Origin: Halorientalis salina
GTDB lineage: Archaea; Halobacteriota; Halobacteria; Halobacteriales; Haloarculaceae
DNA: 64,000 bases
Reading direction: 5' to 3'
Assembly: GCF_005049285.1 (NCBI RefSeq)
Contig: NZ_SOSC01000003.1
Location: forward strand, 124,001-188,000
Shown: piece by piece, positions 20,683 to 51,737 of the stretch
Layout of the letters: the number at the start of each line of letters is the position of its first letter
Numbering within the stretch: position 1 is the first letter of the stretch
The notes under the pieces: generated by a model
What the model saw: the letters and a program-made list of their open reading frames with translations, nothing else
The model's database searches: none
Told to the model about the DNA's origin: nothing
Program-made: the position numbers and the translations under genes

Positions 20683-20696
20683 ATGGGCCCTGGCGG
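20683..20696 (-). repeat. Right att-like site inside tRNA-Met
   Basis: Partner of the copy at 19707-19720. It spans the tRNA discriminator base, the acceptor 3' strand and the start of the T-arm, the part that integrases commonly use as attB. Confidence 0.6.
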
Positions 20697-20790
20697 ATTT
20701 GAACCACCGACCGCCCGGTGTCCCACAACACTGACGCGAGTCAGCAGTTGATATGAGCCGGGTGCTCTCACCAGACTAAGCTAAGGGCCC
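20684..20790 (-). tRNA. tRNA-Met(CAT), elongator type, with 32-nt intron
   Basis: Acceptor stem GGGCCCT pairs with AGGGCCC and discriminator A; T-arm GGTGG-TTCAAAT-CCGCC. Anticodon CAT at 20753-20755. Removing 32 nt (20720-20751) after the base 3' of the anticodon restores a CCCGG/CCGGG anticodon stem, the standard archaeal bulge-helix-bulge intron position. The acceptor stem differs from initiator tRNAs, so this is elongator tRNA-Met, which is known to carry an intron in other haloarchaea. Mature length 75 nt. Confidence 0.92.
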
Positions 20791-21764: not shown

Positions 21765-21869
21765 CGCCACCGCCAGGGTTCGAACCTGGGACAACCACGT
21801 ATCTGCGGCGAACAGGGGATTCCTATTCACCGTAACAGCGTGGTGCTCTACCAACTGAGCTACGGCGGC
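21765..21869 (-). tRNA. tRNA-Asn(GTT) with 32-nt intron
   Basis: Acceptor stem GCCGCCG pairs with CGGTGGC (one G-T), discriminator G; T-arm CCAGG-TTCGAAC-CCTGG; D-arm GCTC...GAGC. Anticodon GTT at 21834-21836. Excising 32 nt (21801-21832) after position 37 restores a CCACG/CGTGG anticodon stem, giving a 73-nt tRNA. Intron position is canonical for archaeal splicing endonuclease. The gene lies 98 bp from the divergent cca gene. Confidence 0.92.
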
Positions 21870-31613: not shown

Positions 31614-32348
31614 TTTCCTCCGTGGGAGTCTCAGCCGGTCTACGAGTCCCCGAAGGCAACATTCCCGTTGTGGTGGACGGTACTCGGGTCTGTGCGCTGT
31701 TCTTTGGGACGGTGAGAGTGTGGTGACTCCGACCAGTCGTGGTCGTCCCACTCGAACCGCACTGGCCGTGCCATCGGCCTGACTGCCTGTTCTGTGTGCC
31801 GTTTGAGGAACGTTTCTGAGGCTGTGAGGTCGGCATTTCCCTCGAACCCACACGGACAGGTGAGTGTGTCCTGATGCCGGGTCGTTCGGTCTCTCGAACC
31901 ACATTGCGGGCACTCCTGGCTGGTCCATGCTTCCGACCGGACTTCCACCGAGATACCGTATTCCTCGGCGGTACAAACCAGGCGCTCGGTGAATTTCCTG
32001 AATGACCAGAAATTGTGGGTCTTGGCGTTGGTTTCGACCGACCAGTGCGTGTCCAACACGTCGATCAAGCCGCCAATATACACTGTATCCACGCCGTCCT
32101 CGTACAGTCTTTCCAGCAGGTCACGACACAGTGCCTCTTGGGCGTGGTCGCGGCGTCGGGTCCGTTTCCGATATAATCGCCGGATACGTTCGCTACTGTA
32201 TCGCCAGTCTTCGAGTTTCGACTGTAACCTGGCGATTTCTCGTGTCGTCTCACGGAAACGGTTGAACAGGTCCCGACCTTCGTACAGGTATTGCTCGCCG
32301 GTCGTGGTGGTACAGGCGACGAGAGTGTTCGCACCAATGTCCAGAGCG

Positions 32349-32402
32349 GTCATCAGACTGCGTCTGATGGGCAACCAGAAATCTCCGATTTCTGGTGACG
32401 GC
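32349..32402. repeat. Double-hairpin unit inserted in tnpB (site 3)
   Basis: Hairpin A: CATCAGAC-tgc-GTCTGATG (32351-32369). Hairpin B: CCAGAAATC-tcc-GATTTCTGG (32375-32395), linked by ggcaa. Removing about 55 bases rejoins the tnpB frame as [11 protein letters not shown]. Hairpin A is shared in core (CAGACTGCGTCTG) with the first unit of the array at 33276. Confidence 0.85.
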
Positions 32403-32690
32403 CGTCTCTGCGGCCAGTGGAGTGCCCCGTGCATTATCAGGAACAGTCACGGGTTGCGAAGCCCTGAACGTGCTATCAGTCTCGTCGTACCACAGGTCCA
32501 ACCGGCCCTGCTTCTCGTAGTTGGGCCAGTTCGGGTCGCCAGCGATTTCAAGCCGGAGACGCCCGGTGTGGTCGTATCTATCTTTCAACTCGCTCCCGAT
32601 CAGTATCTCAAGCCGGGAGCGCTCGCCCCATTCGACGGTGTATGCGTCGTTGCGAATGACGCCTTTGAGTTGGCGTCCATCGTCTTTGTT

Positions 32691-32743
32691 GTCGAGGCGA
32701 ATCTACGATTCGCCGACCATTGGAAATCGGAGATTTCCAAGAC
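32691..32743. repeat. Double-hairpin unit inserted in tnpB (site 2)
   Basis: Hairpin A: GGCGAATC-tac-GATTCGCC (32696-32714). Hairpin B: TTGGAAATC-gga-GATTTCCAA (32720-32740), linker gacca-like. The insert keeps frame but carries a TAG on the tnpB strand. Confidence 0.85.
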
Positions 32744-32958
32744 CACGGAAGCCCGGCGGTTCCGGATGTTCCGTGACTGACGTATTCGACTCATCGTGGT
32801 ACTGGTCCTTCAGGCGGAAGAACCCGCGCCACGCTTCACTGTTTTTGCGTATCACCTGTTGGGCAGTGGACGCACCAAGCACGCCCTTGTACTTGCCTTC
32901 GAGTCGGCCTGTATCGGTGTCCCACACGTCCTCACCCTCAAAGCCGTCCTCGTCGTTG

Positions 32959-33007
32959 TCAAGCAAATCGTAGATTTGCGTACATCGCGGAGCTTTGCTC
33001 CGCTCAG
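32959..33007. repeat. Double-hairpin unit inserted in tnpB (site 1)
   Basis: Hairpin A: GCAAATC-gta-GATTTGC (32963-32979). Hairpin B: GCGGAGC-ttt-GCTCCGC (32987-33003), linker gtacatc. The 49-bp insert introduces a TGA after RLMRY and shifts frame by one. Confidence 0.85.
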
Positions 33008-33269
33008 TACCGCATGAGGCGCTGGTACGTGACTTGGTTCCAGAGCGCGGCAGAAGCGTCCAACAGGTCCCGTAGCAGTTGCTCTCCGGTATTTGAGAGT
33101 GGTCGCACGGCGAACGTGTTGGTACGCTTCATGGCCCACTGTTACATCCAATCCGTCTTGTAATAAAGTACAGCTAACCACAGTGAAAGTAGAACTCGCG
33201 GCGAGTGGTAGAAACTCACGACCAGCAGTAACGGGGGGGTTTTCACTGGAGCGGACGCGATCCACACCC

Positions 33270-33541
33270 GTTCGCCAGACTGCGTCTGTCGGGCAGCCAG
33301 AATCCGGCGGATTCTGGGAACGTCCCCAGAACGCTCCGCGTTCTGGTGTGCGAACGAGACGCTTCGCGTCTCGTCAACGTCCCCAGAAATCTCCGATTAC
33401 TGGTGTCTCGGAAACCGGGGATTTCTGACGTCGAAGGGAATGTGTAGATTCCCTGCCCATTGAAAAACTTCACTTTTCAAGAAGTCCGCAGGAGCGGCAG
33501 CTCCTGAGAGATGCGAATGAGAGCTTCGCTCTCGTCAACGC
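33270..33541. repeat. Tandem array of five double-hairpin units
   Basis: Ten successive hairpins of 5-9 bp stem: 33276-33288, 33297-33317, 33326-33346, 33354-33374, 33383-33403, 33408-33428, 33435-33454, 33460-33480, 33489-33506, 33519-33533. Eight have 3-base loops. Units are separated by short gtc-containing junctions (33322, 33379, 33430, 33484, 33540), a period of 51-57 bp. Stem sequences differ between units but pairing is kept. Lies between the tnpB element and mptD. No coding sequence is evident in 33133-33692. Confidence 0.85.
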
Positions 33542-33692
33542 CACTTCGGCCCTCGATTCCGACAGAGCGTCAGAACACTTGGCCCTCACGGGAATGGGAA
33601 ACTCTCTCGCAGTCACAGGTAGGAATCCGCCACGCCAAGGTATTTCACGCCCATCCCCAAGGGACTTTTCGCCCCGGCCACATTCTCGTGTC

Positions 33693-43353: not shown

Positions 43354-43548
43354 ATGGCAAACGGTACGGTTGATTTCTTCAACGACACAGGCGGCTACGG
43401 GTTTATCGAGACAGAGGATGCGGACGAGGACGTTTTCTTCCACATGGAAGACGTTGGCGGCCCGGACCTCGAAGAGGGACAGGAAATCGAATTCGACATC
43501 GAACAGGCTGACAAGGGTCCGCGAGCGACCAACGTCACTCGGGAGTAA
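43354..43548 (+). CDS. Cold-shock domain protein (first of tandem pair)
   Basis: 64 residues, a single CSD OB-fold with RNP1-like GGYGFIET and RNP2-like VFFHMED. Binds single-stranded RNA or DNA as an RNA chaperone. Promoter candidate gttaatacc about 30 bp upstream of the ATG. Separated by 5 bp from the second copy; 60 of 64 residues identical. Confidence 0.93.
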   Translation: MANGTVDFFNDTGGYGFIETEDADEDVFFHMEDVGGPDLEEGQEIEFDIEQADKGPRATNVTRE

Positions 43549-43553
43549 TTTCC

Positions 43554-43748
43554 ATGGCACAAGGCAAAGTCGACTTCTTCAACGACACCGGCGGCTACGG
43601 ATTCATCGAGACTGACGACGCTGACGAAGACGTGTTCTTCCACATGGAAGACGTCGGCGGCCCGGACCTCGAGGAAGGCCAGGAGATCGAATTCGACATC
43701 GAACAGGCCGACAAAGGTCCGCGCGCGACCAACGTCACCCGCCTGTAA
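43554..43748 (+). CDS. Cold-shock domain protein (second of tandem pair)
   Basis: 64 residues, nearly identical to the previous gene (differences at positions 3, 5, 21 and 64). Probably co-transcribed from the promoter before 43354 and ended by the terminator at 43753. Confidence 0.93.
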   Translation: MAQGKVDFFNDTGGYGFIETDDADEDVFFHMEDVGGPDLEEGQEIEFDIEQADKGPRATNVTRL

Positions 43749-51085: not shown

Positions 51086-51616
51086 ATGTCCGACAAGCCC
51101 GCCTCGATGTACCGGGAAATCAGCAAGCCACCGTACACGCGACGCGAGTACATCACTGGCATTCCCGGCTCGAAGATCGCACAGCACCAGATGGGGGACA
51201 AACAGACCGAAGGCGACGACTACCCCGTTCAGATCAGCCTCATCGTCGAGGAAGAGGTCCAGCTGCGCCACGGCTCGATGGAGGCCTCGCGCCTGTCGGC
51301 CAACCGCCACCTCATCAAGGAGTTCGGCGAAGGTAACTACAAGATGGTCCTGCGGAAGTTCCCCCACCACGTCATCCGGGAGAACAAGCAGGCGACCGGG
51401 GCGGGTGCGGACCGTGTCTCCGACGGGATGCGCCAGTCCTTCGGGAAGATCGTCGGCACCGCCGCCCGTATCGAGAAGGGCGAACGGCTCTTTACCGCCT
51501 ACTGCGAGGTCGACCAGGCCGAAGAGGTCAAGGAAGCGTTCCGCCGCGCCTACAACAAGATCTCCCCGCCCTGCCGCATCACGGTCGAGCGAGGAGAAGA
51601 ACTGCTCATCGCGTAA
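51086..51616 (+). CDS. rpl10e: Large-subunit ribosomal protein L10e (uL16 family)
   Basis: 176 residues, full-length archaeal L10e: [22 protein letters not shown] at the start, [54 protein letters not shown]. Binds 23S/5S rRNA near the A site. The last 10 codons (ERGEELLIA and stop) are inside a 61-bp tandem repeat that continues past the stop. Confidence 0.96.
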
Positions 51617-51737
51617 GCTGACGAGCGTCTTGTTCTCCTCGGTCGCAGAGCGAGGAGAAGAACTGCTCATCGCGTAAGCTGACGAGCGTCTTGTTCTCCT
51701 CGGTCGCAGAGCGAGGAGCAGAACTGCTCATCGCGTG
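51587..51737 (+). repeat. 61-bp tandem repeat spanning the L10e stop codon
   Basis: Unit from gagcgaggagaagaactgc repeats at 51587, 51648 and 51709 (the last partial, with one a-to-c and one a-to-g change). Each unit contains the L10e C-terminus and stop, plus the inverted partner of GAGGAGAA (TTCTCCTC), so the region can fold as successive stem-loops with the stop codon in the loop. Possible terminator duplication. Confidence 0.92.

Follow-up and report, generated by a model that had tools for sequence, protein, structure and literature searches.

What are the ten short hairpins that stand side by side next to a tnpB gene in the genome of Halorientalis salina, and how did they come to be there? 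They occupy positions 33269-33540 of the window, the 64,000-nucleotide stretch of DNA analysed here. The best explanation, held at a probability of roughly 0.7, is that the array consists of a transposase-free mobile element in five tandem copies, some of them decayed. The element, 45-60 bp long, has two adjacent hairpins with fully paired arms and 3-nt loops closed by C-G, and would act as hairpin DNA. It is best read as a haloarchaeal, REPIN-like element; the closest systems are the CGTC-tagged REPs and the SMR and PATE elements of Haloquadratum, none of which it matches. The insertion history of the family is documented by sequence comparison, through copies dispersed among haloarchaea, precise empty sites, flanks of CG in type A and of AC/GT in type B, a preference for IS605-type elements, covariation of the stems and inversion of the loops. 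The element is apparently mobile, and its mechanism is probably single-stranded.

Architecture of the array

Three types of the double hairpin recur in the family. Type A has the form CG[TTGACGAGxxC-loop-GxxCTCGT-TCGCACA-CCAGAAxxC-loop-GxxTTCTGG-GGA]CG, type B has the linker GGCA and type C the linker TGATGA or TCATCA. A covariance model, R1, was built on type A; no second model was made for type B, its alignment (A2) being of insufficient quality. The array comprises five units with CG between them:

33271..33320, no strand assigned: array element 1, resembling type B, CGCCAGAC tgc GTCTGTCG - ggca - GCCAGAATCC ggc GGATTCTGG; CG before it at 33269-33270
33323..33377, minus strand: array element 2, an intact 55-nt unit of type A, flanked by CG at 33321-33322 and 33378-33379
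33380..33428, minus strand: array element 3, type A with the second hairpin decayed; then CG at 33429-33430
33434..33486, no strand assigned: array element 4, divergent hairpin pair (AGGGAAT, loop 6; TTGAAAA, loop 7)
33489..33538, minus strand: array element 5, type A but decayed, CAGGAGC ggca GCTCCTG; ATGAGAGC ttc GCTCTCGT; CG at 33487-33488 and 33539-33540

All ten consecutive hairpins described in the initial annotation are present, and its five units of about 55 bp agree with measured steps of about 52-58 bp. Its count of 3-base loops, eight of ten, was too high: six hairpins have loops of exactly 3 nt (tgc, ggc, tcc, ttc, tcc, ttc) and the remaining four have loops of 4, 6, 7 and 7. Units 3, 4 and 5 are partly decayed, with a mismatch in ccagaaatc-tcc-gattactgg, and the long loops are those of unit 4. 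The 'gtc-containing links' described between units do exist, but they are in fact junctions in which AACG meets TCC, the units being bounded by CG and starting with TCC or TTC. The stems differ in sequence and keep their complementarity throughout the array, as had been observed. R1 matches element 1 at 33267-33324 (26.6 bits) and element 5 at 33481-33542 (43.9 bits); element 2, which belongs to the R1 training sequences, scores 82.1 bits.

Folding, proposed earlier as a check, gave a z of -6.2 for the DNA and -7.0 for the RNA of the other strand relative to dinucleotide shuffles, and in both cases none of 200 shuffles was as stable. Hairpins with 3-nt loops are also in excess in 464 kb of the same genome, a background made up of the window and sampled stretches, two of them picked for holding matches. 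There, 28 were observed with a stem of at least 9 (5.3 expected) and 62 with a stem of at least 8 (22.7 expected), while counts for other loop lengths were near expectation. Rfam at the gathering threshold returned only tRNAs in the window and no match at the hairpins, and at E 0.1 it gave no match at six hairpin loci.

Insertions in the neighbouring tnpB

The array adjoins a tnpB pseudogene, just upstream of its start, and the paralogue L002 also has one unit at that place. Three further double hairpins, overlooked in the initial annotation, interrupt the pseudogene:

31648..33138, minus strand: IS1341-type tnpB pseudogene (OrfB_IS605 / RNA-guided nuclease family), interrupted by the three double hairpins
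32350..32398, plus strand: double hairpin in tnpB, CGG on both sides
32691..32741, no strand assigned: double hairpin in tnpB, 51 nt, no detectable duplication; paralogues empty
32960..33006, no strand assigned: double hairpin in tnpB, 47 nt, GT on both sides; paralogues empty

Set against three paralogues from this genome, the tnpB has three additional stretches, 49, 51 and 52 bp long, each of which is exactly one double hairpin, and the reading frame is shifted by the added lengths of 49 and 52. The empty sites that had been suggested as a check are found in these paralogues, among other places. The insert at 32350-32398 is common to the paralogue at C19:84-85 kb and a tnpB of genome G035, with L002 and L003 empty; paralogue L004 shares the 52-bp block and has a 57-bp block of its own. 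In 45 tnpB-matching loci, not all independent and some being the same copy twice, every insertion of at least 30 nt is such a double hairpin, 49-57 nt in length.

Distribution of the family

The suggested covariance-model search of other haloarchaea found R1 matches, the best at an E-value of 1e-25, in 55 of 58 relatives, and R1 copies were also present in nearly all same-order members of the phylum sample. The named contig matches (n = 38) were all archaeal and nearly all from named haloarchaea, one being labelled Euryarchaeota only. All 46 BLAST-matched plasmids were haloarchaeal, including those of Halorientalis sp. IM1011 (G003) and Halorientalis marina (G001), and one copy lies on Halobacterium salinarum pNRC200. 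No annotation was seen on element copies in the inspected records. The phage records searched held no element match; viral contigs gave 23 short-pattern matches, none of which was the family double hairpin, one being an unrelated GC-rich hairpin cluster. Arrays of at least ten hairpins occur in G043. Larger repeats, namely IS elements and a Haloferacaceae-like repeat, contain half of the copies, which may simply be carried along by them. A lack of further copies and of any hairpin excess had been named as grounds for abandoning the idea; further copies and an excess of 3-nt loops are both clearly present. The array is a member of a real, widespread family of miniature double hairpins.

A larger multicopy non-coding repeat, ACTCAAAGGGGCAG...CTGGGGCTTTGGAGG, is found at L245-L264 in G271 and same-genus relatives, with type A, B and C units at fixed places; its hairpin stems are nearly constant and its loops variable, and three of its loci had no Rfam match. 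At L354, L355, L356, L358, L079 and L082 the unit recurs in a Halorientalis-type intergenic context, CCTTTTTCGCCCACG^CGTTTTTC, which may be a separate intergenic repeat.

Insertion sites and targets

A total of 58 distinct empty/filled sites were resolved, in which pairs from the same site or clade are not independent. At least two duplicated bases were found in 35 of the 58, compared with about 9 (16%, an estimate made in this analysis) expected by chance, and CG lies within 25 of the duplications. One base is duplicated in 13 pairs and none in 10, mostly of type C. At clean type A sites the sequence is N-CG-[53-55 nt]-CG-N, clean type B sites have AC/GT flanking both ends of 40-45 nt, and type C sites in general have no duplication. 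The tandem period of type A is 57, i.e. 55 plus CG. A new element landing beside an old one therefore explains the tandem array of the window, the 57-bp step being one element and its CG.

The location of the copies is not random. Of 28 R1 matches in the own genome, 14 are no more than 1.5 kb from tnpB, several of them from the window's own cluster, compared with 0 of 108 random windows; the same proximity holds for 13 of 29 loci of relatives and 10 of 20 of the phylum sample. Target sites fall in palindromes of at least 7 bp in 13 of 50 cases, against 16 of 400 control CGs (p 1.5e-6). The palindromes that are hit resemble typical IS605 ends, and IS palindromes act as targets. The elements' own hairpins differ from the terminal palindromes of the IS, and the sequence beyond CG is not conserved at targets.

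Candidate enzymes

The element carries no gene, and an enzyme would have to act in trans. Across genomes, copy number correlates with the number of tnpB genes (rho 0.47) and weakly with that of Y1 TnpA (rho 0.28). The weak Y1 correlation, the clustering of copies with IS605-type elements and the REPIN-like form of two outward-tagged hairpins would suit REPIN-type elements moved in trans by an IS200/IS605 Y1 transposase or a RAYT, with CG as part of the cleavage site. This explanation is considered unlikely. Y1_Tnp was not found in the copy-rich, near-complete genomes G005 (17 copies), G018 (28), G036 (20) and G011 (22), and Y1 TnpA was rejected as a required partner. Y1 systems use targets of 4-5 nt, whereas nothing beyond CG is conserved here. 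Archaea have, moreover, been reported with subclass 1.1 TnpA only and no RAYTs (PMC6006769).

Derivation from IS607 or IS110 was also rejected, as the IS607 TnpA exceeded the cut-off in only 1 of 58 genomes and the IS110 DEDD recombinase was present in 12 of 58 and not found in G005, G018 or G043. In G005, a near-complete genome of the same genus with 17 copies, no Y1 TnpA, PF07282 TnpB zinc-ribbon domain, IS110 or IS607 was detected. Y1 TnpA, TnpB, IS110 and IS607 are each dispensable for the presence of the element, and the mobiliser may since have been lost.

Comparison with known systems

The initial annotation knew of no described haloarchaeal element of this design, and no published description was found in the open-access literature searched. 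REPINs and mitochondrial double-hairpin elements had been called only analogies; CGTC REPs and Haloquadratum SMR/PATE prove to be closer, and none of them matches on the features tested.

REPINs are likewise mobile hairpin doublets with a sequence tag at each foot (PMC3116915, PMC6006769). They have a GTAG/GTGG tag and a RAYT gene, whereas no such tag occurs here and several copy-rich near-complete genomes yielded no Y1_Tnp. Unlike in REPINs, each half of the element forms a triloop hairpin complete in itself, and 3-10 nt separate the two.

CGTC-tagged REPs were reported from bacteria only in the survey of Di Nocera 2013 (PMC3733652). They share short palindromes, an unpaired CGTC tag, mostly head-to-head pairing, high copy number, intragenic as well as other locations and the lack of a dedicated transposase (PMC3733652). 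Their CGTC (or TGTC/CCTC) tag beside the stem has a counterpart in type A, most ends of which are CGTC or CGTT. Their loops are of 4-5 nt (PMC3733652), whereas the genomic excess here is of 3-nt loops. The first and second pairs of CGTC REPs are almost invariably A-T; here the first is A-T or C-G and the second mostly C-G. The linker is fixed here and the CG is a duplicated target, unlike in CGTC REPs.

The SMR-A and PATE elements of Haloquadratum are haloarchaeal, transposase-free and tied to near-terminal IS605-type palindromes (PMC3119063). The double hairpin could on these grounds be a small relative of theirs, i.e. a degenerate or end-only IS605 derivative. SMR-A and PATE target or derive from such palindromes, and insertions into them occur here too, at the 13 of 50 sites described above. 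The relationship is nevertheless doubtful. SMR-A is about 110 bp long, has inverted repeats at its ends and does not duplicate its target (PMC3119063), whereas the present element is 45-60 bp, with two internal hairpins and a 2-bp duplication. By its published description, PATE has IS605-related terminal palindromes at both ends and lacks the target duplication seen here, and end-only PATEs are a single fused palindrome in 52 bp (PMC3119063). The hairpins here are unlike the IS terminal palindromes, which serve as their targets.

Mitochondrial double-hairpin or repetitive hairpin-forming elements resemble the family in architecture, as far as the part of the source compared goes, in being tiny, potentially mobile and also located within genes (PMC2800124). 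They are organellar, apparently differ in sequence, and CG duplication is not among the features described in that part (PMC2800124).

Stem covariation and loop inversion

Alignment A3, itself fitted to the structure, comprises 136 distinct matches, in which 98.9% of pair cells keep their pairing and both-side changes occur in 16 of 17 pairs. Cells changed on both sides number 318, against 8 of 2280 changed on one side, and none of 500 shuffles was as good. The earlier claim that structure rather than sequence is preserved holds for pairing, which is maintained through both-side changes, but sequence is conserved as well: little changes in the ends, in the stem bases ACGAG and CCAGAA or in the linker TCGCACA, and variation is mainly in the stem tips and loops. 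In 35 copies chosen by a pattern that fixes part of the stems and leaves most of the second hairpin free, the pairs of the second hairpin are intact in 298 of 311, with 12 mismatches and 1 wobble.

The near-absence of G-T wobbles points to DNA rather than RNA as the folded molecule. Were the hairpins to work as RNA, as processing, stability or termination signals, the covariation would reflect RNA selection; the U-rich intergenic context of some copies, e.g. cctttttcgcccacg, and the RNA fold of the array would agree with this. It is improbable, however, given that the few one-side changes (mostly G-U) and the single wobble in the less selected sample are unusual for structured RNA, that copies lie inside tnpB genes, that no Rfam match was found at the thresholds used and that the loops fit a DNA-specific GNA preference. 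Among 263 distinct units selected for 3-nt loops, 520 of 526 hairpins have a C-G closing pair and 362 (69%) have GNA/TNC loops, a DNA triloop of very high stability. The DNA mini-hairpin d(GCGAAGC) is known as extraordinarily stable (PMC4686876, PMC6582339).

At the same site and with the same stem, 69 pairs of loops are related as exact reverse complements (e.g. L221 and L223), compared with 3 pairs with three substitutions, which indicates that hairpins invert in place. Such flips would still fall short of proving a single-stranded transposition step. Fold-back copying would leave inverted loops and perfect arms much like those seen here, but birth of the hairpins in situ by template switching in replication is very improbable: such switching takes its sequence from the neighbourhood, and here unrelated sites share the same 55-nt sequence, ends and CG flanks.

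Proposed mechanism and significance

In the preferred reading of a mobile hairpin DNA, both arms would fold when the locus is single-stranded or supercoiled. A putative enzyme supplied in trans would recognise the conserved stem bases and the shape, cut at the flanking CG and join the element to another CG. With CG left on both sides of each insertion, later insertions could occur beside the first and build up a tandem array. Repeated rounds of fold-back processing would flip the loops, and one arm may be copied anew from its partner.

The family is present in nearly all haloarchaea examined, although such genomes are well studied. Its loop flips and compensated arms form a natural record of DNA hairpin folding in the cell. 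It may regulate or parasitise TnpB/IS605 elements, and it can serve for tests of mobile DNA that seemingly does without the known transposases found beside it.

Similar hairpins in McrA-bearing archaea

Dense C-G-closed triloop hairpins with AT-rich stems were observed in G204, G082 and G092 (L294-L305, L329-L338), non-haloarchaeal Halobacteriota whose McrA is confirmed by matches to Pfam and PDB. G204, which lies outside Halobacteriales, has 101 triloop hairpins with a stem of at least 8 in 99 kb (2.3 expected), of which 95 are C-closed and 71 are adjacent pairs; G082 has 32 (3.0 expected). As the contigs of both were chosen for R1 matches, these densities are upper estimates. Arrays in this group reach at most 11 hairpins, between which linkers such as acat and gg alternate. 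Essentially no such triloop hairpins were found in six other phylum members tested. The McrA-bearing archaea have a denser, AT-rich relative of the double-hairpin design.

A broader class of mobile DNA is tentatively proposed, at somewhat less than even odds. It would consist of paired C-G-closed triloop hairpins, with a putative structure-recognising enzyme that targets a dinucleotide and stems that drift but stay complementary. The class would span Halobacteriota, its hairpin arrays being those of the haloarchaea and of the McrA-bearing (methane/alkane) archaea, with stem composition following the host.

Other repeats and tRNA genes in the window

The window contains 2.5 copies of a 61-bp unit at 51587-51736 (98% identity) and a 200 bp tandem direct repeat at 43375-43738 (1.8 copies, 89%). 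The consensus of the latter would encode a cold-shock-like stretch, which suggests a recent duplication of a small gene. At 20684-20790 and 21765-21869, tRNA matches of 105-107 bases were given by Rfam but not by ARAGORN, and are probably intron-containing tRNA genes.
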